This document shows positions 1 to 47,712 of a stretch of DNA of 47,712 nucleotides, one piece after another; position 1 is the first letter of the stretch; each line of letters opens with the position of its first letter. The DNA is from Candidatus Omnitrophota bacterium (GTDB taxonomy: Bacteria; Omnitrophota; Gorgyraeia; Gygaellales; Profunditerraquicolaceae), in NCBI GenBank assembly GCA_028715415.1, contig JAQURX010000002.1, forward strand, positions 71,432 through 119,143, written 5' to 3'. A program made the translations under genes and the position numbers. A model generated the notes under the pieces. The model was not told where the DNA came from and did no database searches. It saw only the letters and a list, made by a program, of their open reading frames with translations.

Positions 1-3000
1 TTAAGGCCTTCGACGTTAAATTGCGCCTTGTAAGAAAATTAATGAATAGCGGAGATGCTAATGCGCAGAGCGAGCGCACAACTCTTATCGCTGATATCTG
101 GGCGCATCCACAGGTTGCAGATATGCAGGATAAGACACTTGATCTTAAAAACGATAAGTTAACAGATGCGCAGGTTTATATTTATGAGGAATTAAATAAA
201 GCAAGCAAGGATGGTTCTACCCAAAAAGTTAATAAAGCCATTACCGACCGTTTTCTCTGTAAAGACAAGATTATCGCAGGCATAGAAGACATATTGGATA
301 GATTGCTACAGTTGAAGAAATTGACTAGTCAAGGCGCAAAGAATGCCCGGGAGTTTCGTATAGCGATTATTAATGATATCTGGTCGCATCCTGAGACAGT
401 AAAGATTCAAGACGCGCTTCTTGATATAAATAATGATAATGTGCATGAGGCACAAGTTTATTTCTATAATATATTGACGAACCGGTTGCTGCCATGCGCA
501 GTCCCATTAACCGGCATTGCATTTAATTATGAGTGGCTTAGGATTAAGCAGTCTTCTAGGAGAGGCGTGGTTAAAGCCTGGGCGAAAGCTTTCCACAATC
601 TAGTTGAATTTGAGAAAAAAGAATATTCCCCTGAAGAATTCATGCGTGAGTGTTTAAGGGATTTGAAAGCATTATGGCAAGAGCATAAATTAAAAGATAA
701 GCTTTCCGAAGAGCTTATAGAAAGGGTGGCGGGGGAATTATCGGATACGGATAGAGAAATATTCTTTAAACTTGTAGGTATCGTTGTGGAATCTGCCGAG
801 GTAAAAGATGGTAATGCCGAAGTAGTTGTAAAATTTGTTAATACCTCTCTTCAAGCTAAATTACAAGCTGCTCCTTCAGATGCTGCGCGCACAGAGACTT
901 TGAAGGGAAGTATTACTGCAAAAGCTTCTAAAGCCGATGGTTCAACTACTGATGCTCAAGTTAAATTCATCAAGTTTGGCTCTATCTATATAAAGGTTAT
1001 CTTTACGGGAGAGGGCAAATATACAAAGCTCACTCTTACTGAAAAAGACACTTCAAAATCTACAGAATTCGCAATAAACGTAACTCTTCCTAAGGCTGTT
1101 GCAGCATCAGAAAATCATGCTCAGGCTCCGCCAGCACCTACTTCTTCCACAGTTTCTTCCGAAGCAGATACAATGGCTCAAGAATTTGAGCTTACCGAAA
1201 TAGAAGCCGCTTATTTTAGGCAATTGCGTGGTAAATTTGATGCGCAAATTAAGGTTGAAAAAGAAGCCAAAGAAAAAGAAGCTCAAGGTGAAAAAGTTAC
1301 TGCACCTAAGACTAATGTTATTGGTGTTGATTTCTTCCCGTCAGCAATGCTCAGCGCTGAAGAGCGTAGAAAACAACTTGGTGCAGTAGAATATACTGAG
1401 ATTGCTTCAGATGCGTCCAATGCTCAAGCTTCAGGCAAAGTGCATCTTATGCTCTTCCCATTAAACGGTGGTATCGGCAAAAAAGTTGGACGTGTAGGTT
1501 CTTTAGCATCTATCTGGGATAGGTTAGTTAAATCCGGGGCGAAGAAGGGCGCGTTCCAGGGAGAAAAATCATTAGGTGCTAAGGCTATGGATTTATATTT
1601 TGAAGTTGAATTAAATGGCAAGAAAGAATTAGTTTCTATCGCTGAGGCAAAGCTTTTAAGGAGCTTAGTTGAAGCAAGGTCTCGTAAATACGCAACTATC
1701 ACTGTCCAGGAATTAGTTTCTACTGAGACAGTAGATTCTATTAATGAACTTTTTGACACTATTTGTCTTTTTGATAGAGTTGATGATAATATCCCGCAGG
1801 ATAAAAAGAGAACCTATCGTCAACTCTTTGCAGAATTAGCACAGAAAGAATCAATCAAGATTAGTTTGGTTAATTCAAACTGCGAGCATACCTTCCCGAT
1901 AATTGATAAGGCTACCGGAGATTTCAAATCAAGATTTGTTGAGGATAATGGCAAGAAAAAAGAACAGTGTGCTCCAGGCGGACACGGTTTGTCCGGTTTC
2001 TGGGCAATTATGCATCGTTTATTATCTAATTCAAATGAAACTCCTGTTGATGAACCTACGATTGCCGCGCTTTACAATGAAGACGGTATGAATAACTTGC
2101 CGGATGAAGTTATCTGCGGATGGATGGCTAAAAATAAAGTGGCTATAGTTATGGTTACGACTGAGAAGACGGGCCTTGATATGAAAGGCGGCCAGATTGG
2201 TATTGTTAGGCTTGCCGGAAAGATTAAGAAGGCAATTTTAGAGATTAAGCAGGCATCTAATAATGGACAAGAAGATCTCTTTAAGAAAATGGGTCTTAGT
2301 GAGGGTCAGGCAAGGACGCAGTATTTTAATACCAATATGGCTTTAATTAATTATAGTGTTTTAATCCCATTCTTAAAGGCTTTAATTAAATTAATCGGAA
2401 AAGATGAATTTGAGAAAATATCCGCTCCTGATTTAATTAGGGAAGACACCAAGGATAAGAAGTCTTATTCTTTAGGTGGTGCTATGGGTTCAGTATTGCT
2501 TAACTTAGCAAGCTATGTAGAGACTTCCGATAATGCAGCTGTTATTGCTTTAGCTAAAGAATACGGTTTGGTTGATGAACATGGGCAGGTTTCTATCTTA
2601 AGAATCGTTAACGCAGATAAGAGTAATCGTACTCGTTTTTTTACTCCAGTAAAGACATCATTTGATTATTGGTTACAATATCATTCCGGATTTTATAGGG
2701 TAGACCAAGATAATTGGCAATTAGTTCAAGTTGGGAAAGAAATACCTTCTGTTGAGTTAAAAGAAGCTTATTATGATGAAGCAACTAATGTTATGGAGGC
2801 TTTTAATGGAGTAGATGTTAATGAGCTTAAAGATTTAACTGTGGCTGGAGTGGTAAAAGCAGAAAGAGCTATAGTTAAGGGGCAGAGCAAGATTAATTCT
2901 AAAGCAAAAGGCTTAATAGATTTGAATACTATTTCTGAGTTGTTGCGTACAGCAGAAGGTAGGCTTCTTTTAGAAAACATTACCATAACCATAGATGAAA

Positions 3001-6000
3001 ATGGTAATTGGGTTGAGAAGTCAAGAGCTCCTCCAGTACAGGAAGAAAAAAGCGCTTCTAATGTTGATGAAGCGAAAATGAATAAAATAGGAAGCTGGCT
3101 GTTTTCCAAGTTAGGTGCTATTTCAAGAATGCTCGGCAAGCCGAAAATAATTGTTCTATCTTTAACTGTAGCGATTTTACTATTTATACCTGGTTGTACC
3201 ATGGATCAAATTGCTCAGGGAATTGAAATAAGCTCTATTACACTTTTTGTATTCTTTATGATTGTAAATACATTGAAGGATATGAGAAATAAAAGCAAAG
3301 CAAACCAGAAACTTGGTTCTATCGGAGAAGAAAGTTCTGAACGTAGAGGAGAGTATAATGGATTCGGTGTTGAAGGTGGAAGTGATCCTAATGAATCTGG
3401 GTCACGTTACGCCCATAGCGTGATCAGCATGGAAGAGCTCGAAAGATATTACGAGCAAGGAGGAGAAAATCTTGATAGTCTAAACCAACCGCAGGCAGAA
3501 ACCGGTCCAACTACAATAACTATTCCACAGGTACCGGTAGATACAAAAGCTGACAATCAAACAGTAGAAAAAGAGCATCAAGAAAATAGAAACTCTAGCC
3601 CGGATCAAAATCAGGTAGTTACAGAGCAAGTACATTATGTCCTTGGAAATGAACCGCTACCCGAAATAGGCAGTGTCTATAAAGGTGGGATTGTTACTAG
3701 GATAGAAGAAGAAATCAAAGATTCTTATGAGCCTGCGCGTTTTGATTGGCCAGGATCGACAGATTATGTTCTACCAATACCCACAGGTAATTATTGGGTG
3801 TATTGCAAAACAAATTTACTATTTTTAGTTTCTTGTTTAGCTGCGATACTTCTTTCCGGTTGCGCTGGAAAATCTGTCAAGGCGTCTTCAACTGGATTCT
3901 GGACGAATGTCGGTGGATTCTTTGTAGCGCATTGGGATAGTGTAGTAGGAGTTGTTGCTATTGTTGTATTGGCAACTTTATTAATCTGGAATAGGAGTAG
4001 AAGTAATAAAGAAGAAAAGCAGGAATACGTAGAAGAAATTTATACTTCAGAGCATAAGCTTGCAGCAATGGTAGCCAGAATAGGCGTTGACATAAAGGGA
4101 AGATTTGTCCCGCTCACGAGCGATGCAAATCTACAATTACAAATAGCTATCAACCAAGGCAAGAAAGGCGATGTCGGTAAAACGGTACATTATCATACAC
4201 CAGCTCCTGGCCAAACCAATCCTCGTCAGGAGATTATTTATGTAATTAGTGGCAAAATAAAAGCCATGATTTATACAGAAGAAGGCGATTTAGTTGCTGA
4301 ACGAGTTATAGATGAAGGAAGTTTAGTTTTATTTACGAAAGCCCATAACATTGAATTCTTAGAAGACTCAAAATTATTAGAGATAAAGCAGGGGCCATAT
4401 CCTGGATTAGAAAAAGATAAGATTGTACTGGCGAATAATTCTACTTCCTTCCAGGGCCGCCACACACCGCAAGACATTCAAGAATATCGCCAGCGCGTAG
4501 CTAAAGCAAGGCAAGAGAATAAATGCGCAGACGTGAATCAGGCACCGGTGATTAATGAAGCCTTAATGCTTATAAGGGGACTTAATATAGACTTACCAGA
4601 TAACCCTGGCAAGTTGCAAGTCGCAGATGCATTAACCGGAAAGCAAATTTACCTTATTACTGTTTCTGAACGCGGACCTCCAGATGGTTTTGCCGAAGGA
4701 AATGAAATCTTCGTTTTCCTCTCCAAAGAAGACCAAACCACAAATACTATCGCTACAGTAGTTTCGCATGAAGTTATTGAACAAGCCATCCTTGCAAAAG
4801 GAATAGTAATAGATGAAGCACATCAATTAACCCAAAAAATAGTTAAAACCATTCAAAGTGCTGCGCCTTCTGTTTCAAGTAAGCCTTCTCCAGTTGAAAC
4901 TTCATATTCGTTTACCTATCAGCTGCGCAATATTCCTTTAGAGTTGGAAGCTACCTTGGAAGAGTTGAAAGAATCCGGAACGTTTGTAGATAGCACATTA
5001 TCAGGCTTGAATTTAGGCGGATACCATATTAATGCAAGAGTTGCTTTAGGTTCACAGGATACAAAGCAAAATCCTATAGCAATTGTGAGTATTGAAACAC
5101 TAAGTTTATTAGTTACTGGATACCTTGCTAAGAAGGTCTTTGAAAAGAATGAAAATGCAGAAGTAATCTCTTACCTATATATGCTCTCATATTTGAGGAG
5201 CCTGCCGATTACGCAACGCCGCCAGGTCAGCACAGAATTAAATAAACTTACTGAAACTTCGGCCCAGCCTTTAGGAGATCGCCTTTCCAAGGAAGTTAAT
5301 TCTGATTTAAGTGAAGTAATCAAAGATTATCCCCAATTAAAGAATTTAGTGGTTTTAAGAGATAGAGTGGTTAGCCGTGTAAGGGCGCTGCGTATCGCAA
5401 TAGAAACAACCGGATTAACCATGGAAGATTTAGCGCTTATTAATAGAAATGAGAATTTACTTAATGTTGTTTTAGGATTAGCTCCTGCTGCAGTAATAGA
5501 AAATAATTTTTCCGCTGAAGAATTAGAAAAAATTGCCAAAATATTAAATATTTTTGATCATATTGAAGGTGCGGCTATAAATTTAGTTACATTAATTGAT
5601 GGCAGAATTTATGTATATGATGAATATGCCGCGAAGCAAATCGTCTTCGGAATAGATAATTATAAAAAACAACAGCTCCATTTAACTAATGCTGCAGTTG
5701 AGCATCTTATTCGCTTGCATATGGCAGCTGGGCGAGGAGTATTCTTTGATTTTGCTGCAGTTAAAGCGGTTGATGCTGAATTAACTAGACTATTAATTAC
5801 GGGTATAGCTGTTCCTCTATTAACCAAGCATAAATATGACAAATTTACCCGCTGGGATATGGAAAAGCGCATTTGGCGTTCAGCCGGGTTAGGCAGCAGA
5901 TTCTATGAGTTAGAACGTATCAATGTGGATGTAGTGGCAATGGCAACAATAGACAGGCCTACTGCTACTTTAAATCAGATTGAAGTAGAGTTAGAGAACT

Positions 6001-9000
6001 GGAGGATATTTAACCGCCGCGCTGTGTTTATGCTGATTGATGATTCAGGCGTAACCCGCCTCGGAAAGCCAAATTCACCTAATCAAAATTTGGATATCAA
6101 TTGTAAGAACTTAGCATTTTTAAATTCTGTTTATGGCGATAGCTTTGTCCACCTTACATATGAAAATAGAGATAAAGATCAAGACGCCTGGTCGCTAGCT
6201 ACTTTGCGTGTTGTTGAAGCTAAGTTAAATAATGGTACTTTGGAGCCAGTGTTTAAGACAATATTAGTTGATAATAAACTTTTGAATGAAGACGGAATTT
6301 CAATTAATGAAAAGGCATTTAAGGCATATGTTTCGGGAAATATATTCAGGCATATTTCTGGTGTGCGTAATTACACCTTCTTGAAAGCATTAGGATACCG
6401 CGTAATGAGCGAGGATGACGATGCTCCTTCAGAAACTTATGTGTTATTGCCTGATGAGCTTCAAGCCATAAGAACAGAGCGCAGCACAGCAAGCAATACG
6501 GCTTTTGAAAAGTTATTTACAGATGCTTCCGCTATATTCGGCAGACAGATAACATCTTTAAATGAACTGTATATTCTTTGGTCTCAGGAATCCGATGCAG
6601 AGAAAGCCTCAAAATTGGAAGAATTAGAAAGGATTTATTTTGGTTATAGCGAAGATGGAAAATACGGTTTAATCCCTCAGGCAGCTGGTCAAATCCGTAC
6701 GTATTCCAGCCATTATATGGATCCTCGTTATAAGAGAACACATCAACGCTATGAAGGATTGAATCGTCCGCAGGCAGGGCATGATCCCGATGGCAGGATA
6801 CTTTACAATGATATGCCGGAACATCTGGTAGTTATATCTGATTTCAATTATCGCCGCGGCCGTATTGAGAAAACTGATGGAGAATCATTGGTTTACCCTG
6901 TAAATGTTACCGGAAGCGCTCGTGATTTGGGGAGAAAAATCGGGGAGACTAATCTAAATGTATTTGCAAATAGTTTGCGCGGTACAGTTGCAATACCTGC
7001 CAGTTCAGATTTCGCTGCGGCAGTAGGGGAGAAGACAGTAGAGTATATCGCCTATCCTTTTATCAACGATCATGACACATCTGGCATGGCGCAATTCATC
7101 AGGTATTTATTAAGCGATACTAAATTCTGGTATGATTTGCAGCATACCCATCAGTCAGCATTGATTGTTAATTCGGTAAGAGGGTATGCAACATCAGGGT
7201 ATGTAATCTTTAACCGTTCAATATTCCAGAATTTTATTCCGGGAGTATCTATTGGAAGAGAGTTAAGGTTAGAAGAGCCTCCATATATCGTCTGGGTAAA
7301 ATCTCCGATATTTAATGGGGTTTTGGCAATGTCTATGGGAAAAGTAGCAGGTGCGCAGCAGCGACAGGTTAATGAACGTAATTATTGCATCAGCGAACAG
7401 GACCGCACGGAAATCCTCGGTACGTTTGCCCGCAGGATCTATGAAAAAGCAGTTGAGAACTTTTACGCGGAATTAACAGCTTTAAATCCGGATCATCCTT
7501 TACGCCAAGATGATAATTATTATGGCAGATCTTTGCTTTTAGGCCAAAAATATGTGGAAGAAGCAAAGAGATTTATATTAACTGCCGAAGAAGCCGCTCA
7601 AGCTGATAGCGAACGCAATTTCCGTGCTCAAATGGCCACTACTTTGGGTATACAGATTGCGCAAATGCAAAGGAAAGCATTGTTAGCTTCTGATCCGAAA
7701 GAACAAAAAGCATTGCAAGCTCAATTGCAGGATATGTCTCTGATTTTGGCGCAAATCGCCGATGATTTTGATTTATACAAAGCAACTGACAGAAAGAAGA
7801 ATAACTATTCGCCAAAGAATCCGGAAACCGATTATTTCTACCGAGTAAAGATAGAAAGAGGCAAATTCTTCTTTAAGAAATCAGTCCCTGAAATTACAGT
7901 GCAGAAGATAAAGGGTATTGATATTGCAGTAGGAGTAAATTGGATTGAAGAGGCTGATTGGCATGAAATAAGTTTAGTTTCTGTAGAAGTAAAAGATGCG
8001 CTTTGTGATGCTTTGCGTCTTGAAGTAGAAGCAGGGCGTTTTGTATTTGTAGAAAAAGCACGCATGCCTCAAGAAGGGCAAGAATTTTTGGCTGTAGCTT
8101 GCCCGGCAAACTACAGAGATAATTTTGTTAAGTCCAACGTTGAAAACAAAGTTAAAGATTATGTCCAGAAAGACGGAGAGGCAATTGCATTATGGGCTAT
8201 TTTAGCTAATGTTGCCCAGAAGCAGGATTGCGCTAAAGAAATGGATGCTTTGCTTGGCCCCGGAGCCAACCATGCTCCAGCAGAGGTTTATAAAGAAATT
8301 TCAGCTCCTCGCGCTCCTCCTCAAAAGACAGAAAAGACAGTTTTAGTTACCGGTGGAGCAGGATATGTTGGTGGTTTCTGCGTAAGGACGTTGCTTCAAA
8401 AAGGATATAAGGTAGTTATTTATGATAATCTTTCTTCCGGTAATAGGAAATTACTCCCTGATGGAGCCGTGTTTATACAGGGTAGCCTCGATGATACAGA
8501 AAAGTTAGAAAAAGAGGTTTTCACAAAATATGACGTCTCTGTAGTAATGAATTTTGCTGCTAGTATCGAAGTTGGTGAATCTCGCCGCAACCCCGCCAAA
8601 TATTTCTACAATAATGCCGTAAATACAATTAATCTTATGGTAATTGCCGCAAATCATGGCGTGAGGAGCTTTATTCATTCTTCAACTGCTGCTGTGTATG
8701 GGGAACCAGAAGTTGTTCCGATAGTTGAAACTGCTCCTTTAAATGCATGCAACGCATATGGAGAATCAAAGTTAATGATTGAGCGTGCGATGGAATTATT
8801 CGAAGCTAAATATGGAATGCACTTTGTAAGATTCAGGTATTTTAATGTTGCCGGAGCTTCAGAAGATGGGAAATTAGGCGAATTCCATACACAAAAAGAA
8901 ACTCATATTATCCCTAGGCTAATTTTTGTTATTTATGGTTGGCTGGCTAAGTTTAATATCAAAGGATTCCAGGTAGAAAATGAAGCATTGAAAGAATATT

Positions 9001-12000
9001 TCTTAAGCAAAGAAAGGGCATTACCTGATCCTACTCCATTTAGAGATTATATTAATGTTGTAGATTTAGCAGAAGCCCATGAGTTAGCTATTGGTTATTT
9101 GGAAAATGGCGGAGTAACCAACGCATTTAACCTCGGCACAGGCGAAGGCAGCTCATTAAAGCAGGTTGTTGATGCCGTACAGAATTATACCGGCAAGCCG
9201 CTTCCGTTTATCGTCCAGCAAAGTGGCCGCGAAGGGGAGCCATCGAGATTGGTTGCGTCTTCAGATAAAGCAAAACAAACTTTAGGCTGGGCTCCTTCAA
9301 GAAGCTTGGATGATTCAGTGAGAAATTCTGTTGAATGGTATAATTCGGATAATTTCAAGGGGATTTACGATGGCAAGACGACCCCAGCTGATCCTTATTC
9401 ACCAGTAGAATATGCGCTTAAAGTAGTAAGCAGTATTACCGCCAATAAGGTAATTTCTGGAGATTTAAAATTTGAGTTATTATTCAGGATGTTGGTTGAT
9501 ACAGCGGAAGCTGTTTTATTAAGAGGAGAAGCAAATAAGGGTTCAGAATTATGGAATGCAAGCCAGGATTTAGTCGCAAGAGCCCGTAAGTTATTTACGG
9601 ATTGCGCCAAAATTACTGCATCAGCAGGAAACGTAACTATTTCCAAGACAAGCACTTTGATTCGAGAGGCAGCAAGAAATAATAAGGAATTTGTGGATGC
9701 TATAAAACGAGTGATTGCGTTAACCGAATCCAGAGAAGAAAAGATTATTTATGCCGCTCTTATTTCCAATCTTGATATAAGCCCTGAATTGGTTTCAGGA
9801 GTTGTTTTATTAAGAAAACCAAATGATTTTAAGGTAAGCGACGATTGGCAAAAGACAACAAATACTTCCGATGAGCTTGCTGGTAAAAATGATAATCGCA
9901 GCCGTGCTATCAGCAGAATGTGGAATAATTTCGCAACTGCTATGAATGGCGGTGCAAGATTTGATGCCATTGTCTTTACCACAAAGGTAAGCGGATTAAT
10001 CGATAATATAGATGAAGTTGAGTCTTACAGGGGCATATATTTCCCTGCAGAAACACCTGTATTTGTCGTTACGGAACGCGATGGTAAATATAAAGATAAT
10101 TTTAGCGGTGTAGTTAATTTAGCTAAGCATCTTCCCGAAAGATTTACAGAAGTAGGATTAGATTTCTTCAATTCAAAGATTTTATTGGTGCATCTCGCCG
10201 GACAAGGTAAACGCAACAATCCTTTGACGGTTGCTGATGGCCGCGGGAAAAAGCATTTTATTACACGTGCTTCCGGAAAGAGTTATTTGGCTCAGACTAT
10301 GATTGAAAGCTACCAGTTATTTGATGCCAATGTGAATGGTATGATTGAGAGAAATAATGATCAGATACTTTGCGTAGATAATGATAATGTTTTTAGCGGC
10401 AACCAGGGATACATTACTGGCGGGGATATTGTTCCGGCATCTGAATTTGATTTAAATAATGCGGCTCTAAAAGTTGATGAAAATGGGAACATAATCTTAG
10501 CACTTGAGAAGCCGCGTCCATCTAAGGATCAATCAAAAGAAGATTTTCTAAAAGTTTATTGCGATAATCAGGGAAGAGTAGCTGCCAGTTGGTCTGTAAT
10601 TTTACATAGAGCAGCCTCTTTAAAAGGCCTAGTAGAATTTGCCAAAGAATTAAGCGAAGCAGGCGAGCCTTTGCATGAGAAATACGCTCTTAAAGTCAAT
10701 TCCCACATAATTACTGGCGCAACTCAAGACGGCGCAACTTGGGCTGCATTAAAGGCTGTATATGACCCGAAAAATGACGTAACTGCAGAAGATTGGAAAA
10801 GAGTGCAATATGCAGCTAAGAAATTCGCAGCTACTTCCGGAATAGGTTTTGGAAATTTAGGCACAGACAGAATAATTCTTGATACCGGACAAAATAAAGA
10901 TTACTTCGCATATTATATGATGTTGTTTGTTGATCCATATTTAAGAGCTTTGGAAGGCATAAAATTAAATGAAAACGGGAATATTGTTGTAAATTCAATA
11001 TTAAGCGAAGCATATAAAGAGGATTTGAAGAATAGAAAGAATGTTATTATTGTTAATTCTATTCTGGATGGCAATGGCACAATTTCCGATGAAAGCGTAA
11101 TTATCAATGTCTCCGCTACAAACCTGAAAACAGAAGCAAAAAGCACAGTGTCTTGTATTATTGCAGAGCCGAATGAAACTATAATTGGAAAATCCGGAAT
11201 TATAATGGCGGATATTTATTTGGCTGATGGTGGGAAGGTAAGAGTTGAGTATTCTTTAGATAGAAATCCGGATGATGATTTCACTAAGAAAATCTTTGGC
11301 GGAGAAAAATACTCTTTTGCTGATTTATATGTTGTGCAGGACTTAAAGAAGACAATAGATGTAAGAAAGAAGCTTTTGGAAAGAATTGGTGCGCTTACTA
11401 TTGAATCAAAAGACAGTGACTCAGCTACACTAAAATGCGTCCTTTTCCCAATCCCATTAGGTGGCATACTTGGAATTAAGAATTTCGCTAAAAGCCTCAT
11501 CAAAATATTCGTTACCTTATTAGTTATGTCTTTTGTTTTTGCCTTGCCTGGCTGCGGCGCAGGCAATCCTTTGCCTACCGATACAAGAATCTCTATCAAC
11601 GATTACAATGATGATACAACTATGCGTGTTAACTTTAGCGCAGACTTGTTGCAGCAGATGAAAGATGCCGGATACACCTGGATTGAAATTCTTCCTATGA
11701 AAAATAACGGGAAGAATGCTTATGTCTCAGGAGGAGATGGAAAATACGTTTCTGTCAATGATGTTATAAATCTTTTAGGCGGTGGTGTTGATGTTTCAGT
11801 TAAAACTACCGGAGATTATCAGGCAAAGGTGCGTTTCTACGTGCCGGGGATTAAAGAAACTCCAGCCCGCGCTACAGAATATTTTATGACAGACGGCCTT
11901 GATTATCACGTTGCGAATTTAGGAAGTTATCTTCCCGATATTTCATTAGATGTTAACAATAGTGATCACGATAATACGATAGAGTTCTACATACCCGATA

Positions 12001-33000: not shown

Positions 33001-36000
33001 TTGGAATGAAAGTTGGAGGTTCTGATCAGGATTTAGCCGAATTTCACATAGAAAATAGAAAATCTCATTACACAAATTATTTTAAAGTCCGCGCTCGCCC
33101 GCGTAACACAAAGGCTATAATCAATGTTGATACTGATGCGGCAGATGCAGAGCCGATAGTTAAGTTTATCCAGCAGGTTAACGAAAAAGATGGGATTGTT
33201 CCTTCAACTGTTCATATCTCAACTTCTCCTCCAAATTGTGATGATACCGAATTAGATAGAGCATATAGCGATTTGGATGGTTTACGTTATCCCGAAGGTT
33301 ATGGGACAATAAACAGGTGTATTGGTATTGCTCAAAATCTTCCTGTTGTTTTCGCGCTTAAAGATAGTGAGATAATAAGCCGTCATACAGCTAAAGATGC
33401 TGTTTGTGATGCATGGGATAATCTTAAAGGTGATATTGAAGCTTTTGATGCGCAAGTAGCACAAAAGAAAGAATCATTCTTATCAAGATTTTATCACGCC
33501 GCAGAAAGGACGTTTAAGGAAATCGCGGCTAAAGCTGAGAATGGAACAATCAATCCATTTGCAAATTTAAAGCTTATGAAATACGGCGCAGAAAGACAAG
33601 ACGAGCGCTTAAATGATACAGAGAATGAAATTAATGTTGGTTTTCTTGCAATTACAGGCAATCCTCTTAACTGGGGGCATGTGTTGATTTCTTTGATGGG
33701 ATTAAATGCTTTAAATCTAAATACCGTAATATTAAGAGTTCAATCTGAAATTAGTTATAAAGGCCTTTTAGCTTCGGAGCGTGTGTCAATTAAAGACAGG
33801 CATTTCATGGTTAATGAGGCTATTAAAGGAATGTTCCCATTAGTCAGATATACGGATATTGGTAGTGAAGAAAATATAAGCTATGAAGGCGCAGAAGACA
33901 TGCATCGTTTCTTGGAGCTTAATGCCGATAGAAAGATGAGGATTTATTATATGCTTGGCGCAGAAAACGAAGCAAGGATGTGGAAGTATATGCGCCAGCA
34001 GTATGAAATGTTCAAGAAATATGGTTTTGGAAAAAATCCCAAACATCATATCACATTCGCGGTTATTCAAAGAGGTGAATACGGCAAGAACGTAACTATA
34101 GAAGAATTAAGAAGCATAGCGCAGACAGTACAAAATGAATTTGCTTCTGAAATGCCATTGGATGTTGTTTTGATAAAGGACCCGGATATAGATTTAAATG
34201 TTTCTTCAACATATTACCGCAACACCCAAGATGGCGCATTTGTCCCTCGAAGTGTCCATGAATTTGCAAAATCGCACGGATATTACGGTCATCCACCAAT
34301 TGACCCAAGGACTGGAAAGCCTCTTACTGATTGTCAGGAAAAATACTTTAGGATGAAGCTTGAGCCTGTTGCCAGAGAAATGAGCAGGCAAATCCAGGGA
34401 AAGATTAGCAACAGAGAGGTTGCAGGAAACACGGCATTAGTTTCTATCGATGGTGGTTCAGGATCAGGAAAAACAACAATCGCTGAAGAGGTGGCAAGGT
34501 ATCTTAAAGAGCAGGGATTGGATTCAATCATTATTCCTCTTGATATGTTCTTAAAAGACAGGATTTGGCGTTTAGCAATACAGAAACTTGTTACCGGAAG
34601 GCTGTTAGCGGAGAATGAAGAGGCTATTGTTGGCGCATTAGTTGGTAAGATTAAAGCGAAACAGCAGTATCTTAAAGAAGAGAATTTCTTTGATAACCAA
34701 TCTATTCTAGAAATGTTAATGGATATTGACCATTTCCGCAGGTCAGGGGAAGAAAATTTTGTTTTAAGCATTCAGAACGCTTATGACCAGAAAACCAAGA
34801 CCATGATGAAAAAGGAATTTAATTTAAAACGTGGAATGGTAATCATCTGTGAGGGTAAATATGCTAATGAAGAAGAATTGCAGCCATATTTTGACTTACG
34901 TTATCGTTTGCACGACGCCCCAGACCGCACTGAAGCGCGTTTCCAAATCCGCTCAAGAAAGCTTAGCCCCAATGATGCTGATATGCAGATAATATTCTAT
35001 GGCATGTCTTTGGTTCCTTCTTATGAAATCTATGATAGGAGAACAGAGAAGCAAATACATGGGTTTATAGATTTAAGAGGCGAAGAATGGTTCTTGAAAG
35101 ATAAACCTAATGGTGGAAATTTAAAGATTGACGTTGCAGCGTATCTTGCACAAATACAGTCTAAATACTTTGAATTAATGCAAAAAGAAGGGTTGTTTGA
35201 AAATCCATATTGTTTATGCATGGTTTGCTGCAAAGTTATCGCACTTGCATTATCTAAGAAGTTTAATTTACCTATAGGTGGCATAACTCCTGACAGATTA
35301 GAAATTGTTCCCGGAATGTTTTTTAAAGAAGGCATTGTAGATAGCGCTCATCAGTGGATTGCAGTTTATCATAACAATGAGTTGGTTTTATATGTGGATG
35401 GCTCATATTGGCAATTTAACGCACAATACAAAGAAATTATTATCGTAACTCCGTATCAATTAATTGTACAGAAATTTGGCTTAAGAGAAACAAGAGAGCT
35501 TTTTAGAGAGAAACTTTTTGCTTGGTGGAAGGATAATGGTGATGCTAGAGCAGAATTTGATTTTTATGAAGCAATTGTTTACTTGGCATCAGAGATAAAA
35601 AGCCCCGAGTTTGCTATGGATAATCTTGATTTAGTAGAAGATTATGAGGAATATTGTGATAATGAAATTATCAGGAGCGGAAAACTTACCGATTTTGGCG
35701 CTGAAATAGAAGCAAAGATTGAGTTGGTTGTTGCGGCTTTAGTTGAGGAAGAAAAGGGTGTTCATAGATTAAATAATTCAGCCCGATCTGTCACCACTAT
35801 GACTTGTTATGATCCTTTTGTGTTAGGCTTAGGTACTGCAGGATTTTGGGTTACACCAGTTCCGCTTCTAATCACTCTTCTTATTATATCAGTCGGCTTG
35901 ATAATTTTATTACTAAGCTATCAGTGTTTTGCGCAATGGGGCCAAGATGCTGTTACCGGATTAAATTCAAGGCCAGCGACACGGGAAGAAGCTGCCAGAA

Positions 36001-39000
36001 TGCGGGATGTTATTAATTATATGCTGCGGAATAATAATTTTAATATGCCGATGTTTGATATTCGTGTGGTAAAAAGCGCCGGTAGAGACTATCTTGCTAT
36101 GCGCAGAGATGATAAAGGGGTTCCGCAGGAGTTATATATTGGCGAAGCGATATTAAGTGATGAATTGGAATTACAATCATTTTTGATGAAACATATCCAT
36201 CGTATCCTTAGCGTTGAGTTTACTGCCCGCGCAATGTATCATGATTGGCAGAAGCTTGATAAGTATTTAGAGACGGCGAAAGCAAACAAACCCGGGACGA
36301 TGGCGCGTTTTGACAGCCTGATTGCGATTTACTTAGGGTTAGAGCCGCTTAGAGCAAAAGTACATGATTTTGCATTACTGTATCCGGAGCATCCAATAGT
36401 TAAATTTATCAACCAGCCGCGGTTATCTGAAATGGGAGAAGTATTAAGGGTGTTGCCAATTGAATTTGGTATTAGCCAGGCAAATCTTCCTTATGTAGCC
36501 CAATTCACGTTGAATATTGATGGGGTAAGAAATGCATGGAAATGCGCTTGTGATCGTCTTTTAAGATTGCGTGCTATATCAAAAGGCGAAAGCGACGAAA
36601 ACAGCCTTGAGGTTTTTAATGAGCTCTCGCGTACTCTTAAGATGTTGGTGCACGAGATGAATTATATTGAAACTGAGACTTCTAAAAGAATCAGGGATTA
36701 CAAGGTCGTCATCTTAAAATTAAAGATGCTTTCTGTTTTCGTGGATTTAGGAGGAAATATCAGGCATGAGGCAAATGAAATTTGTAGCGAATTAGCTCAA
36801 AGAGGCGAGTTTAGGGATTCCTATTACGATGATCATGAGGATTATGATGGTGATGATGATACGACTTGGGGTGTAGCTTCATTTAACCCGCTTCCACTTA
36901 TTTTAGGTGCTGGATATGTCATGAATAATCAGGATTTTGGTTATATCGCAGCGATAGTTTTGGCTATCCTTGCTGTTATATTAGGCGGATTTTATCTTTT
37001 GCCCCAAGTAGCATCGGCGTTTGTCCATTCCGATGAATTAGCAAGTGACAAAACAGTTGAGTTGATGAAACAAGAGAGTACCAAGCGTCTCCGTACAATC
37101 ATGATTTTCTGTGGCGGCTCAGCATCGAATTTCTTCTCTGAAGTAGCCCAAAAATTAGAATGGCAGCTTATCAGAGTTCTGACTCCTTTTGATGAAGGTG
37201 GAAGAACGGGTAAAATCCGTGAATGGATGAATAAAAATAAGCAACTAGCTTTCTTTGCTATCGGAGATTTAACTAAAGTTTTATTGGGCCAGGCGCCTCA
37301 AGCAGTAGTTCAGAAAATCATGGATGAAGAAATTATCTTGGGCCCAGGTAAAGTCCAGGAAAAAATTAACGCAGTAGTTAAAAGTCTATATGATCAATAC
37401 AAGAAGGACAAAAAAGGTTTCCCGAAAGACTATAATATAGATTCTTCGGAATACACAACATTCGTCACCCGGCTTATTAGAATTGGTTCATATTTTGATA
37501 ATAACGCCTTTCTTAGGAAATTTGCAGACGAGAGCCCTAATAGTAATTTTGCTATCCGCCATCTGGTTTATTTTGCTTATTTTTGGGAAGAGTATGATTC
37601 AGGCAGATCGTATCAAGAGGCGATAGAAGAAGCCACAAAAGATTTTATTAAACTGTTAGGTATCAAAGAAGGCCAGGCTTTCTTAAGTAGCGTTGATAAA
37701 GAACTAGGTTTTCTCATTGCTAAACGATATTTAGACGTTGATCGTGAACACCAACATAATATTACAGGTGATAGGAATTTAGGATTAGTGAAAAAGATTT
37801 ATTTTAGCAACAAAAAGGTTCCGGATGCTAATAGCGCGGTAATTAAGCAATTAGAAAAGCTTCAGGCAGGGGATATGGCTGTGTTTGGGCCGGGGAGTTT
37901 CTATACAAGTATTCTTTGTAATTTGATGCCTCGCGGGATTGTTGAAGCTCTTATTAAAGCTAAAAGAAAAGGGGTAATTTGTATTTTTGCTTTTAATCCG
38001 ATTTATTGTAATGAAACCATGTCTATGGGGACACGCCCTAATCCTTTTGTGCACATGGTTGAACAGATAGAAAGTCATGCTGGTATACATTCTTTCGCGG
38101 AACTTTTTGATTATGCTATTGTTAATGATTCTAATAAAAATAGCGAAGAAGCACTGTATCTTATGGGAGAGGAAGGTTCGAAAGAAGGAAGCGATAAATT
38201 TACAAGAGCAGACAAAATCAGGCGTGGGGCTATCGAAGGAAAAGACGGACTTGTGCAATATTTCAAAGAGAGAAAACAACAAGTCACAGTGGTTTCTGGA
38301 AATCTCATGAGCATTAAGAAATCCGGAGGGAAAAAAGAAGCCACATATAATCCGGATTTATTTTCTTCTCTTCTTAAGGCTTTAGCAAAAGATCACACTT
38401 TATCCAGGGTTCCGGAGATGATCGTACTTTCTGACCCGCACGCGACTGTAGATGGGCTGTTGCGTTTTATTAACACTCTAAGCGGAAGAGCAGTTTTCGT
38501 TAATGGAGATTTGATTGACCGCGGGGATGCGTTATGGGAGCTTATGGAATTAGTTGATTATTTTACGCTTGGCGATCATGAGCTCTGGGCGTTAGGCGCT
38601 TGTTTGGGGCATGATTATCTCTTAGCAATGTGGTTGCGATCGCTCTACCGCTATCCGATGACTACTGTGATATTAAAGGATTTGGGAATTGATATGGAAT
38701 GGATAGAAGCAAAGAGTAAAGAAATCTATCATAATAGAGTATGGGAAGATTTAAAGAAAGACTTAGAGAAAGATAAAAAGAAATATAAAGGCCCCGATAC
38801 TGCAGTAGAACAACTTTTCTTTAATATTTGGATTAAGATAGCAATTAGAGAGATAAAGAAACTAGAAGAAAGTGGCAAGAACCTTCCGCCTTCGCTTCAG
38901 CTTGTAAAGGCAACCTTTGGGGGATTAAAAGGAAAGGGCTTTGGCGTTGAGAGCAATGATTTAACCAAAGATGAACAAGAGATATTCAATTATGTAAAGA

Positions 39001-42000
39001 CAGAATTCTTGAAATCAAGGCAGCAGCAGCATTCTGTAGCAAATTTGGCAGCGTATCTTCTTAAGGGAAGAGTTTATCAGATAGTCCGGCCGTTACCTGA
39101 TATAGAGCAGACAAAAGAATTGCGAGATGTAGTCTTTCATAAGCCTGGCGATTATCCAAAGGTAATGCTGCTTCATGGAAATATTCCGATGAATGGTTTA
39201 GGCCAACCCGTAAATTTGCTTGGCCAACCAATAGCTCTAAATACATTAAAAGATTATTTTGATACCATAAATGAGAATTTGGTTTTGATAGAACAGCGTT
39301 TCCAGGAATTTAATAGAGCTGGCGGAATTAGTGGACGCGAAAAGGAATTTTGGGGAGGGATTACTTTAAAAGGTTGCATAACTGATGCGCAAGAATTCTT
39401 GTTGCGTTTAGCTGATAGCGAATACTCTCCGCTTTTTGCCAGAAAACAGAATCGTATTATAACGTATTCTAAAGGTGACAAAGAATTGGATAACGTTGCC
39501 TATGCATTTCTTACCCGAAATAAAGAGCAAGAAATGGAAGAGTCGGGAAATGCTGAGAAAGCACGGTTAAACGATCCTAAAAAGTATGCTGCTGAAGAAG
39601 TAGTTTATACTCCGCAACAAATTAAAGAGAGTTTGAAAAAACTCTACGGGTTAGAGGATAGTGATTTTGGAGATGACAAAGAAGGTGATAAGCTCTACCT
39701 TTGTTTACAGAATGAAGCAGCCAATAGAAAAATTGCCAAAAAGATTTGTGAGGTTTTTGGGGTAGAAACTATTATTCTTGGCCATATTGCAAGAGATGAA
39801 AAGACAGGTAAACCAGCAAAACTGGCTGAAGGGAAAATCTGGATGATTGACGGGTCCTTTGCTAAAAAATCCGGAGAAACAGGAGAATTGGCAGCAGAAG
39901 AAACCGGAGGATTTTTGTTAGTAAGGCAGAAGCAACACCTTGGAGATAGCGGAATAACTTCAGGTAGGTTAGTTAAGGTAGGGGAAGTCTTGAAGAACAA
40001 AGACGGCAAATTTGAAAAAGAGCAGATGATGACTATCTCCTTACTGCGGTTAAAAGAGCTTATTTATTACGATGATGCAATGTTAGAGTGGAAGTTTTTA
40101 TACCGTGCGCCAGCCTTGATGCAGGATTTGTTAGCTGTATTTGGCATAAAGGTTCCTGGTTGTCCGGAAGTTTTGTCTATGGATAGAGAAGTTTGGAGTA
40201 ATTTCTATAGTGAGCTACCTGATGAAATTAAAATAAGCTTAGTCGGAGAGGTTAAGAAGAGTATATCAGCGGAATTCATAAACGTGATTGAAAAGTTGTC
40301 TGAAGAAATTAAACAGGAGAATGACCAGGATAAGAAAGCCAAAAAAGAGAAACAATTGGTTGGATTGCAGAGCGGTATTAAAGATACCAATAAATTTATA
40401 GATCAATATATTAAGCTTTCAGGAGTTTTTGTTAATGCAATTCTTAATTATAATTCATTGTCTAATGATTCAAGGATGCTCTCTCGTATAAATGTTAAAC
40501 CATTGCGGTTTATTTTACCAGTTTGGATTAATAATAAAGTATGTTTGCGCCGTACTGTTCAAGAGCTCGATCCTAGTTTATTTGAAAGTTTAAGAAAAGC
40601 TCCTAGAGCAAGATCATTTCCAGATAATAGAATCTATGCGGAATTAGATAGGCCGGCAGAATCTAATGATACAAATAGAGTAGCAACATATCCTCTTCTT
40701 GTCCCTGAACAATTTGCTCAGCAAGCCCAACCCGTAGATTCCGACACTGTTTTAAAAGATAGATTAGCTAAGTTAGAAAAGCTTTTAGGCAGAGCTCCTC
40801 CAGAAGCAAAAATTGAAATTACCAACGACCTCTCCAAAACAGAAGGCAATGTCGCCGCATGCGACATTGATGCAAAAACAGTTTATCTCCATCCGTATTT
40901 CTTTACACTTCCTGAATCAAAACAAATCGAAATCATTTATCATGAGCTCGTCAGCCACATCGAAAAAGGCATAAGAGATGAAGCTGAAGCAATGGAAGAT
41001 ACTCTTTTGGAGCAAGAAATAATAGGTTTAATTCGGGAATCAAATTATCCGTTTGCTGAAATATCTAGAGAGATTCTTAATCAACATTCTATGCGTTTAA
41101 AAAGAAGAGAAAAAGGTGAATTTAGTGTTAAAGGCGGCAAATGGCCGGAATGGAGAGATCGATTAGAATTAGCAGTAAAATGGTGGTGGACAAAAAGAGG
41201 AGAATATGATTATGAGCTCGTTAATGTCTTTGGTGAAACTAAAAAAGAAGAGGAGTCCAATGTCCAGCAGGTAACATTTGAATTTATCCGTTTGATGAAA
41301 GAGCAAGGAAAGAGATTTTATATTTATTCTGGCGGTTCAGGGGCTGGTAAATCGACTATGTGGGTTGCTCTAGAAAATGACAAGAATGATGGCAAAAAAT
41401 TTCAAAAGTTTGTAATCTATACAGCTCGAAAACGAAGGTCCATTTCTATTAATAAGAATGCAGATCAGTTATATGGTGCGATTAATTTTATTTTGTTAAA
41501 TGGCGCTAAAACGGAACCAGCAGATTTAATCAAACTGCTTAGAGAAAATGGTTTTGATGTAACACAAAAACTTTTGGAACTATTAGAAGCAGGAAATCTT
41601 ACAAGTGAGTTATACGGAATTGATCCAGATACGGGCAAACAAAGGAAAATTGAGTTTAATGAAAAAATTGATAAAGATGGGGATGTTTTACGTATTTATA
41701 CTGAATTTCATGGGGTTCAGTATTATTTTGGCAGTGAAGAAGAGTTATTATTGCTAGAGAAACAAGGAAAAATAAAAACATTTAGAATGGGGAAAAAGCG
41801 TTTATTGCAAGGATATTCATTTGAGCGTGTTCAAGACGCTCTTAGGAATGAAAACGTAATAACTGTTTTAGAGTCTACCCCCGAGATGACATTTGATTTA
41901 AAAGGTATGTATCCAGGAGAAATTGGCACCTTTTTCGTATCCCCATTTTCTACAAAAGAAATGCCAGATGCTTATGCGGTTATAGATGAAATTATTAGAG

Positions 42001-45000
42001 ATGGCGATGCCCCATTATTTGAATTAGTGAAAGGTTACGGGAAAGCTGCTCGGGAACATCTTTTAGTAGCCTTAGAGATATATGCGAATGCAGAATCAAC
42101 TCCAAATATGAAGAAGGCGCGCGCTTCACAACTCTTAGCTGATCTCTATGGCATGAATGAAGATGGTGAGTCTAAAAAATTAAGCTCTGCGTATATCCGG
42201 AGAGTTTATCAGAATATTACAGATGAGATGAAAGAAGAACTTTCTCAGCTTCCAAGCTTGGCAGTTACTGAAGGATTGACTTTTAATGAAGAGATGGAAG
42301 GTGAAGAATTAATACTAACTTCTTCCGCAAGAATAGACTTGCAACACGACTTGGCCTTAGATTTGCCTGTTTATTCTCGTGCAAAACGCGATCGCGAAGT
42401 AGTAAACTTTAGCGTTAATCTTAAAAACTTTGACGAACAAAGATCGATTTGTCCCGCTTTTCGAATTATATTTCGTACCCCAAAAAGAAAACAAGGAGAG
42501 CCGGAGCGTATTACAATAAGCGGTACTCGTTATAATCTTGCAAAGCGCGAGCTTAAAGATGAAAAATCACATATTTTCTCTAGATTTGAAAGACATTATT
42601 ACGATGTTCAAACATTGTTATCTGATCTTTCAAATGATAAGGCACGTTATGTGATAGAGGCCTTAAGGTTAACAGGAATCATTCCAGAAGAAGGCATGTC
42701 TTTGGTTGAAACATTGGGTTCGTTTGGGCATCACTTGGAAATTGAAGTACAAAGTTTTCTACCTCCTCAAAGTGGCTTAGGCGGAAGCGTGACTCTGGCA
42801 GGAGCATTAGTTTACGGATTCTTAACAATTACCAACCGAATTAAGCAGTACGATATTAAGACTATTTCTCTTTATGCTTCATTGATCGAAATGAACCTTG
42901 GTTCTCTGGGTGGATGGCAGGATGCTTTCTTAACTCCAGGATTGCATTATCTAAATATTCCTTCAGGATGCCCGATTACTAAACTTAATGATTCTATCCG
43001 TAAGTATATTCCTAATGATGAATCTCTCAAGCATATTGAAAGACTCTTAGAGGACAATATTGTGCTTTATTATTCAGGTGGCAGGCACACTGCGGCCGAT
43101 ATTTTGGCAGAATTGTTTAAGGGATATCTCAGAAGAGATCCTAAATTTATGAATATTTTAGAACTTGGGAGATCGGATTTAAATTATTCTAAGAAATTAT
43201 TTAAACAATTTGCTATGGAACATAATGAAAAAGCTCTTATTGAGGGAATAGCAAAATTAGCAATAAGAGCAGGCCGCCAATTTAATGAAATTGTCCCGGG
43301 TGTAATTTCTCCAGAGATGACAGAGGTGTTTTCAGACCAACGACTTCAAGAGTTTATTTATGGTTTTAAATTTATGGGAGCAGGCCAGAGTGGCTTTGTT
43401 GCGGTATTTTTGAAAGAGGCTAGATATAAAGAAATTGTAGAGAAAATCTTAAATGAAATCTCCGATGAAAGAGCTATGTTGCAAGAAGCCAAAAGTTCTA
43501 TAGCTATTGGTGGAGTCAAACCGGCAACCTATTCGTTCACAACCGCGCAAACTGGTTTGAAATGTCAATTCAATACTCTTGATTGTCGAGAGGAAGAGTT
43601 GCTTGTGCAAGCAGATGCCAATGGAAACATTATTGGAAGTATCAGCAGAGAAGATGCCCATAAAGAAGGAACATGGCATTTAAGCGTTTCAATATTACCA
43701 GTTATCGTTGGCCAAGATTCGGTTACAGGCCAGATAAAAAAGGAAATTGTTCTTGGAAGAAGGTCGCGTTTTAAAGAGTCTTCTCCTTTATGTAGCGATG
43801 TTTTAGGTGGCCAGGTTAAGTTTGGACAGAGCTATGCAGAGGCTCGAGATGTTCAAGCAAAGGAAGAATTACTTGTAGGTATTCGTGATAATCAATACGA
43901 GTTAGTTAAAACAGAAGGATTCTTTAGAGCGGATGTCAAAGATCCGGGAATCGGGATTAATCGAGAACATAAAGCTGTTTATGTTTGTTTCTTGGATTTA
44001 TCTCAGAAGGAAGAGCTTGAAGAAAAGAATCTGGAACTCAAACGATTTTGGCAAATGGACCCCGATGATCAATATGTTGAGATATTAATGAAAGCTAAGA
44101 CTCTTGCGAATATAGATGATGCAGAGTGGGATAATTTAAAAGAAGATATGCGATCCAGATTTATAAATGAAGCTAGAGCCTATTTTGAAATAGAAGAGTA
44201 TATCTTTATGGATTTAGATGAAGCTATTGGGTTATACAATAGAGATCAAGAACAATTTGCAGACGGATTCTATACGTTATTTGGTACAAATTTTCCAAAT
44301 GGCGAAAAGAATGATAATGCCGAGGAGTATAAAGATTTAATAAAACAAGCTATTAATAATGTGCACGGAGGTAAAACAAATGGACAACGTGAGAATGCTT
44401 ATCCTTTAAGCGTTCCCGATCAATTTGCGCAGCAGGCTCAACCCGCAGATGCAGACAGTATTCTTAAAGATAGATTAATAAAACTAGAAAAACTCCTTGG
44501 CCGTGCTCCACCGCAGGCATCAATAGAGATTACCAACGACCTCTCCAAAACAGAAGGTAACGTCGCCGCATGCGACATTGATGCAAAAACAGTTTATCTC
44601 CATCCGTATTTCTTTAGTCTTCCAGAATCAAAACAAATAGAAATTCTTTACCATGAGCTTATCAGCCATATTGAAAAAGGCATAAGGGATGAAGCTGAAG
44701 CAATGAGGGATACGCAAGAATTTACAAAGGAAAATCTTGCCACCGCCACTTCTGGTCTTCTCTTCTGGCCAAAACATTTTACTCAAGGAAAGCCTTTGGA
44801 TATGAGCCTTATTAAGACAACCCGTTCTGTTGAAGAAGTGCGTAAGCTTTTAGAGCGCGCTAAGACAGAAGGAATCGAATTGTCTATTAAGGGCCATTTA
44901 AGAGGAGTAGATGGTTGTGGTTCAAGTTTGGATTTACCGGAGTTCCAGAAAGCTCTTACTCAATTAGGCGTAACAGATTTATCTAATATTCCTTCCACGC

Positions 45001-47712: not shown

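Follow-up and report, generated by a model that had tools for sequence, protein, structure and literature searches.

The window analysed here is the whole of a 47,712-nucleotide stretch from a Candidatus Omnitrophota bacterium (bases 71,432-119,143 of contig C2, JAQURX010000002.1, 196,044 bp; assembly GCA_028715415.1, 1,847,204 bp in 39 contigs, 96.98% complete and 2.45% contaminated). It lies in the interior of one giant gene, whose single open frame begins at an ATG and ends at a TAA, crossing one scaffold gap and two contig joins with exact overlap. The first-pass annotation, made from the letters of the window, had claimed an uninterrupted frame of more than 15,900 residues that chance could not produce, and recomputation bears out both statements: frame +3 holds 0 stops in 15,903 codons, for which the probability at the base composition of the window (38.3% GC) is about 10^-524. 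In the other five frames 609-1,753 stops leave longest open runs of 67-168 codons, and GC by codon position in frame +3 is 0.485/0.352/0.313.

3..47711, +, stop-free frame, interior of one gene (gene residues 16,220-32,122, numbering from codon C2:22777; frame of 67,680 codons in all)

The annotation had held that the window cuts the gene at both ends and that the full protein is longer, and had proposed extending the frame over the contig as a check; the frame indeed continues both ways and finds its start and stop outside the window. From window base 3 it stays open to the 3' end of C2, 41,537 codons (124.6 kb) without gap or stop. Contig C21 opens with the same 127 bases that close C2, with no other overlap of at least 60 bases among the readable contig ends; C21 is open end to end (7,365 codons), and its last 127 bases overlap the reverse strand of contig C23, again uniquely among readable ends, where the frame stops at TAA. 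Upstream, 16,185 codons lead across one 100-N scaffold gap to the ATG at C2:22,780; an alternative ATG lies ten codons further in, and neither start has a clear Shine-Dalgarno (SD) sequence. The whole gene thus comprises 67,680 codons from C2:22777 and encodes 67,679 residues from the first ATG, 34 of them undetermined letters, and at 203 kb it takes up 11.0% of the 1.85-Mb assembly. Its first 337 residues, hereafter the head, comprise a signal-like segment and a C39 peptidase domain. At this length the protein does rank among the longest, as had been proposed, without being a new kind of thing, since longer ones have been cited (see below).

The gap (C2:71332-71431) directly adjoins window base 1 and its length is a placeholder; an identical 33-residue tandem-repeat stretch is read on both of its edges, so that repeat copies may be missing there. 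The link from the window to the upstream part rests on the scaffold, on agreement of frame (1/3 by chance) and on this shared repeat; because the repeat stands on both edges, a single gene across the gap is likely, though not proven at that point. Two further small contigs, C33 and C34, are likewise open end to end (1,061 and 1,041 codons); they could belong to a different large gene or fill part of the gap described here.

A frame of this size could in principle be an artefact of chimeric or collapsed joins. The gap lies in a repeat beside the window, the joins C2-C21-C23 come from k-mer overlaps, and five small contigs stood outside the overlap-uniqueness test. Against this stand the 41,537 codons in one contig and an even codon usage along the gene: in 14 consecutive whole-gene blocks the correlation with ordinary upstream genes is 0.93-0.99, a measure that discriminates modestly, because two wrong frames still give 0.87 and 0.89. 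Moreover, gap-free giants occur in other assemblies: genome G028, of the same family, has a frame of 57,099 codons that ends in a true stop and runs off the contig at its 5' edge, and G265 has one of 35,009 codons, stop to stop, carrying the head. As both are free of gaps, giants of such length are not the quirk of one assembly, and we consider an artefact barely credible.

Sugar-nucleotide and glucan modules

Within this frame the window encodes a series of modules related to enzymes of sugar-nucleotide and glucan metabolism (scores are in bits, against the cut-off of each profile):

1320..3008, +, UTP-glucose-1-phosphate uridylyltransferase-like (UDPGP) module 1; PF01704 42.8 vs 22; limits set by the match in genome G106
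8340..9347, +, UDP-glucose 4-epimerase (GalE) module; TIGR01179 304.2 vs equivalog cut-off 262.3; Pfam Epimerase E 2.9e-45
20925..21137, +, GH13 alpha-amylase-like domain; PF00128 35.8 vs 22, over profile positions 290-360 (length 446); 1wza matched weakly at E 4.3e-4
21948..23372, +, glycogen/starch synthase-like module, GT5 plus GT1; PF08323 E 5.2e-31; PDB 3vue E 2.5e-17; under the glgA cut-offs
24948..25547, +, UDPGP module 2; PF01704 31.5 vs 22; 41-43% identical to module 1
42660..43463, +, GHMP sugar-kinase-like (fucokinase-like) module; PF00288 21.9 vs 22.3; NF009948 60.2 vs 721
45264..45476, +, second GHMP-kinase-like domain; PF00288 21.7, just under the cut-off

The annotation had placed recognisable domains from 1.3 to 47.5 kb in one frame. 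This stands on the plus strand from about 1.9 to 38.8 kb, where Pfam matches exceed their cut-offs, and is weaker beyond, as the kinase-like matches near 42.7 and 45.3 kb fall just short of theirs. Among the scanned modules of the window, GalE is the only one over an NCBIfam cut-off of its own; its translation reads GGAGYVG and YGESK, and thus contains both GxxGxxG and YxxxK, which we take to be the GalE motifs. Read by eye against known motifs, most, not all, active sites of the window modules look intact: the amylase-like domain has the GH13 catalytic residues and the radical SAM domain listed below its cysteines, while the glycogen synthase-like module keeps EPxG and has a histidine for the lysine of KTGG. 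The best glgA NCBIfam score of the latter module is 133.3, against a cut-off of 328.45. Sequence searches of the PDB with UDPGP module 1 and with the second GHMP/HAD region gave no match at E<=0.001.

An epimerase-family match at E<=1e-40 is present in 33 of 40 genomes (this one and 39 relatives), and only three of the 40 have one that exceeds the cut-off for GalE: the present gene (57,756-codon frame; its module scores 306.6 in the whole-genome search) and frames, perhaps shortened by contig ends, of 1,680 codons in G019 and 7,918 codons in G008. A second epimerase of our genome, in a 316-codon frame, scores 178.5 and remains below that cut-off. Since the sole other matches lie in long frames, giant proteins of this family may typically carry GalE. 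The UDPGP module was found in 9 of 147 class genomes, ours included, elsewhere in frames of 1,242-39,687 codons except for one 612-codon gene (G106). Our chain holds two of these modules, and their relatives are mostly in other long frames.

Proposed membrane layout, repeats and further domains

The first 57,756 residues contain 99 strongly hydrophobic 19-mers (by hydropathy only), some of them within soluble domains. Segments of this kind in the window, several ending in a lipobox-like motif, are given here with a block of repeats:

3147..3203, +, membrane segment with lipobox-like end ...FIPGC, the Cys being window residue 1065; hydropathy and lipobox scan
3813..3989, +, membrane hairpin, lipobox-like ...LLSGC and then a return segment with a K/R-rich flank; hydropathy and lipobox scan
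11496..11555, +, lipobox-like membrane segment ...FALPGC; hydropathy and lipobox scan
13221..13376, +, return segment and lipobox-like segment ...SFLAGC; hydropathy and lipobox scan
14223..16631, +, eight 100-residue repeats, weakly fibronectin-III-like; 23 invariant positions; model with predicted local distance difference test score (pLDDT) 80
17292..17432, +, return segment and lipobox-like segment ...LFLAGC; hydropathy and lipobox scan
35859..35915, +, hydrophobic, probably membrane segment; hydropathy
36945..37001, +, hydrophobic, probably membrane segment; hydropathy

In the window the lipobox-like cysteines are residues 1065, 1287, 3851, 4458 and 5810. Across the whole gene 12 segments end in a lipobox-like motif, with a total of 21 lysines and arginines (K/R) before them and 9 after, and the hydrophobic segments that follow them have 10 before and 28 after, a pattern that matches segments leading out and, after them, segments coming back (the hydrophobic stretch after the fifth falls within the domain of glycogen synthase and probably does not span the membrane). 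If this layout is right, the 100-residue repeats would lie outside the membrane; their model matches fibronectin-III and giant-adhesin Ig domains weakly in Foldseek (best E 0.031, none <0.001). MG3, EMC4 and DUF1828, which match this repeat region on the whole-protein score only, no single stretch passing, were discounted.

The remaining domains of the window are as follows:

26052..26603, +, dephospho-CoA kinase-like (CoaE) module, P-loop kept; PF01121 45.2 vs 27; 56.2 vs equivalog cut-off 65.55
27783..27974, +, GNAT acetyltransferase-like domain; PF13508 28.9 vs 27
28245..28622, +, minigluzincin-like module copy 1 (HExxxH, not HExxH)
28740..29891, +, radical SAM plus SPASM; PF04055 E 1.6e-14, PF13186 E 9.1e-07
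30543..31256, +, DUF1152 domain; Pfam over cut-off
32232..32621, +, minigluzincin-like module copy 2
33660..34565, +, NadD-like nucleotidyltransferase, then P-loop nucleoside-kinase-like domain; TIGR00482 22.2 vs 112.45 and NF005807 36.7 vs 221, both below; 1rz3 E 5.9e-6
37782..38156, +, CofD/YvcK-like domain; PF01933 58.1 vs 30
38418..38795, +, metallophosphoesterase/FBPase_2-like domain; PF06874 48.6 vs 27
40680..41072, +, minigluzincin-like module copy 3 (the folded one); structure model
44391..44792, +, minigluzincin-like module copy 4

The CofD-like and phosphoesterase modules recur in the same order in a 5,690-codon frame of another genome (L011, G039:C30), which suggests that the pair is kept together; CofD is also present in our genome in a stand-alone frame of 415 codons. 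The minigluzincin-like module is the recurring one, copies 1, 2 and 4 being 55-74% identical to copy 3. The model of copy 3 has a pLDDT of 72.7, and its ten best Foldseek matches in the PDB are all minigluzincins of the selecase family, at weak E values (6.2e-3 to 0.14, none <0.001; best probability 1.00). All four window copies read HExxxH where minigluzincins have HExxH, and the zinc motif is lost in three relatives, from G265 and G040; the module may be a peptidase-derived spacer, perhaps inactive.

Elsewhere the gene encodes M50 (HEAGH), cell-wall hydrolase and M15 domains (Pfam), glutaredoxin and GH2, two receivers, a phosphorylase and TPR, a borderline match to signal peptidase II (25.3 vs 25 bits), a flavin disulphide reductase, GT4, a second amylase, an M48 match with HEMAE and without HExxH, a methyltransferase, an alpha/beta hydrolase and M23. 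At least five Cro/CI-type helix-turn-helix domains form an array (L008:7563-10412, gene residues ~47,900-48,600), with a sigma-70 region 2 match further along (L009:7562-10411), and towards the C-terminus there are an Rce1-like protease (EExxxR plus FxxxH), a methyltransferase and HEAT repeats. No Pfam match at E<=0.001 came from the final 741 residues on C2 or from any of the eight C21 pieces, and no adenylation, ketosynthase or carrier domain of nonribosomal peptide or polyketide synthases is among the Pfam matches at E<=0.01 (window) or 0.001 (rest).

A probable single chain and its possible processing

How many proteins would such a frame yield? An SD-like motif precedes 17 of the 1,172 in-frame ATGs, against a mean of 31.4 (sd 4.9) in synonymous shuffles, none of 200 being as low, and a strict motif gives 4 against 10.7. 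Part of this effect is a general avoidance of SD-like motifs, because an isoleucine-codon control is slightly low too (178 vs 203.8, sd 13.1; 7 of 200 shuffles as low). By these counts internal initiation looks selected against, and internal starts, considered as a source of separate proteins, were held unlikely owing to the depletion. The corresponding explanation, an operon that has lost its stops and makes many proteins from one frame, would account for modules that resemble whole genes, some of them after signal-peptide-like segments, and it may be argued in its favour that, with no clear SD at the start of the gene itself, other starts here need not have one either. Nevertheless, SD-like motifs are depleted and not enriched, no stops remain, and neither Rfam families nor tRNAs were found in the window; we regard it as very improbable.

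We favour, at a probability of about 0.55, a single translation product that weaves through the membrane and serves in adhesion as well as in sugar-nucleotide and glucan metabolism: a multi-enzyme apparatus of the cell surface. The ribosome would make a single chain of about 68,000 residues, to be threaded many times through the membrane, with signal- or lipobox-like segments leading outward and positively flanked segments leading back. Loops on the outside would be repeat-rich, and adhesive or cell-wall-acting; other loops, many probably inside, would carry the enzymes that make and break sugar nucleotides and glucans (UDPGP twice, GalE, glycogen synthase, phosphorylase, amylases, GT4 and sugar kinases). 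Anchored at the surface, the apparatus would act where the cell touches a host or its prey, and attachment would be coupled to the conversion of sugar polymers. Counted in favour of this proposal were the unbroken frame, the kinship of the head, the constraint on regions shared with other giants, the scarcity of SD-like motifs before internal ATGs, the GalE score, the charge pattern around the lipobox-like segments, the C39, M50, cell-wall hydrolase, M15, M48, M23 and Rce1-like domains, and the published rise of peptides from a related giant ORF in attached cells (PMC10066038).

Several observations weigh against this proposal: (i) Cytosolic-type enzymes and helix-turn-helix and sigma-like domains are awkward in a surface protein; the enzymes favour either cleavage or inside loops, and a simple in/out count leaves not all of them inside, as it puts window residues ~5,811-11,953, with several cytosolic-type enzymes, outside. 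(ii) The K/R excess before the lipobox-like segments is seen in 8 of the 12, with the reverse in 3 and a tie in 1. (iii) Lipobox-like segments are moderately enriched, about two-fold (a looser count gives 13 windows where shuffles average 5.97 and reach 13 at most among 500; the mirror gives 5), and four other giants have 0-1 each (G108 being partly unread); a strict count gives 7 here (one doubtful; mirror 1) against 0-1 in those four, and we rejected these segments as a family-wide trait. (iv) A loose SD pattern is found in 10 of 14 upstream ORFs (open reading frames), 4 of the 14 showing none, the giant's own start has no clear SD, and the shuffle test covers the giant gene alone, without an ordinary-gene baseline. 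(v) Ordinary genes on contig C16 fit their families far better than the giant's copies: a stand-alone CoaE (222-codon frame) scores 164 bits against 49.6, and a stand-alone glycogen synthase (470 codons) 284.2 against 112.4. The giant's versions are therefore divergent second copies of unproven activity, and the idea that its enzyme modules are the sole copies of the genome was rejected for these two.

As the main rival, the same features could be read as those of a metabolic polyprotein, a single chain cut into enzymes and lipoproteins by signal peptidases, at the internal signal-like segments, and by membrane proteases embedded in it. Some viral polyproteins are processed by signal peptidase, and viral polyproteins likewise combine a single frame, internal signal-like segments and embedded proteases; the gene described here differs in being cellular and far longer, with cleavage only proposed. 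The 12 internal lipobox-like segments, oriented by charge as expected in total, are in keeping with such processing, as are the embedded families with roles in processing or intramembrane proteolysis (C39, M50 with HEAGH, Rce1-like, the borderline signal peptidase II-like match, M48) and the several enzyme modules that look motif-complete. No clear recurring cleavage motif was found, however: RAPP occurs 12 times in the first 57,756 residues (0.3 expected), but the copies largely mark homologous modules, for which reason it was rejected as a universal cleavage signal. In addition, the M48 match has HEMAE instead of HExxH, and the lipobox excess is moderate and not common to the four other giants. 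On balance we find the polyprotein unlikely, if clearly conceivable. A fuller version is more doubtful still: made in a single passage of the ribosome, the chain would combine lipoproteins and adhesins with the enzymes of a sugar-nucleotide and glucan pathway and with membrane proteases of its own, and would process itself by cuts in the membrane at internal lipoprotein signals; if true, one 203-kb cistron would stand in for an operon with dozens of genes. Among the open-licence papers listed, none proposes a bacterial metabolic polyprotein in its title or the opening of its abstract.

Whichever way the chain is used, the gene can be followed from start to stop, takes up 11% of its assembly, has a head in common with the probable Velamenicoccus protein described below, and carries legible active sites. 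Because domains of this kind, GalE for example, can be assayed singly, the question of what giant bacterial proteins do becomes testable.

Relatives and comparison with known giant proteins

The head matches 104 of 293 class genomes at E<=1e-6, our own included, and in 22 of the 104 it lies inside a frame of at least 10,000 codons, a lower bound, since contigs may cut frames short; the weaker matches cover the C39 part only and need not be N-terminal. Of 21 loci encoding head relatives, 18 come from Omnitrophota or Omnitrophica metagenome-assembled genomes and one from such a genome labelled "bacterium"; the remaining two, from Actinoalloteichus, are a short weak match. At the level of sequence, these matches establish the kinship of the head with the Omnitrophota giant-ORF family, to which the gene also conforms as a single ORF of more than 20 kb with many transmembrane segments (by hydropathy only). 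The homologous N-terminal head as a mark of this family is our own criterion, not a published one. One relative, G108, is a single contig of 1,974,201 bp, on which the frame with the head match has 39,687 codons; from this length, against the published 39,678 residues, it is very probably the genome of Velamenicoccus archaeovorus. G028 has, on a second contig, a head-bearing frame of 1,921 codons that runs off the contig; it was not joined to the 57,099-codon frame, as the contigs do not overlap.

Beyond the head, our giant and that of G028 share 17 chunk-level blastp matches at E<=1e-4. Eight regions, four of them in the window, could be aligned with three other giants, with nonsynonymous differences (pN) of 0.215-0.470 against synonymous differences (pS) of 0.744-0.912, ratios that are rough because silent sites are saturated. 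Both lower limits belong to the region around DUF1152 (gene residues 26,350-26,980), which is 64% identical over 631 codons to one in the G265 giant (pN 0.215, pS 0.744). These values plainly show constraint at the protein level in the shared regions, and bear on the notion that the gene is a slowly growing, largely neutral fusion, in which genes and domains were captured in frame and are kept loosely, with little function of the whole. So little content common to giants even within one family would fit it, as would housekeeping enzymes present as divergent second copies and long Pfam-free stretches such as all eight C21 pieces. Amino acids are nonetheless conserved in the shared regions despite saturated silent change, 203 kb is kept free of stops within a 1.85-Mb assembly, and internal starts look avoided; we hold neutral fusion to be improbable.

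Giant ORFs of tens of thousands of codons have been published for Omnitrophota, including that of Velamenicoccus archaeovorus with 39,678 residues (Seymour et al., PMC10066038), and giant proteins of up to ~85,800 residues are cited (West-Roberts 2023, in PMC12057145); this kind of protein is also covered in PMC11573180, and a term search of PMC13153191 and PMC12583861 returned nothing on giant proteins. PMC10066038 describes most Omnitrophota giant genes as having few annotated domains, and reports peptides of a related giant ORF up 3-fold in attached cells. Given these reports, our gene is a member of an already known kind, among its largest, and sets no size record. It can be traced all the way from its start to its stop, and its enzyme cargo is unusually legible; less usual, besides that cargo, are the lipoprotein-signal-like segments and the apparent avoidance of internal starts.

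Set beside known systems, the recurring module resembles the minigluzincins of the selecase type (PDB 4qhi, 4jiu, 4jix) in predicted fold, at E 6e-3 at best, and differs from them in the zinc motif. The Velamenicoccus LiM giant (39,678 residues; PMC10066038) likewise carries the head at its N-terminus (32% identity over residues 37-269, E 8e-26) and has a UDPGP module 32-47% identical to ours in the matched pieces; with G108 there are 13 chunk matches in all, in a partial comparison, as 40,000 bases of that stretch are N. Both giants have many membrane segments and tens of thousands of residues; ours is 1.7 times longer and, unlike the other, has an enzyme set that includes an equivalog-level GalE, as well as lipobox-like segments. 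Finally, the giant genes of Omnitrophota, Elusimicrobia and relatives summarised in PMC12057145 agree with ours in size class, phylum, membrane helices and carbohydrate-active domains, although that summary emphasises the degradation of carbohydrates and cell walls.

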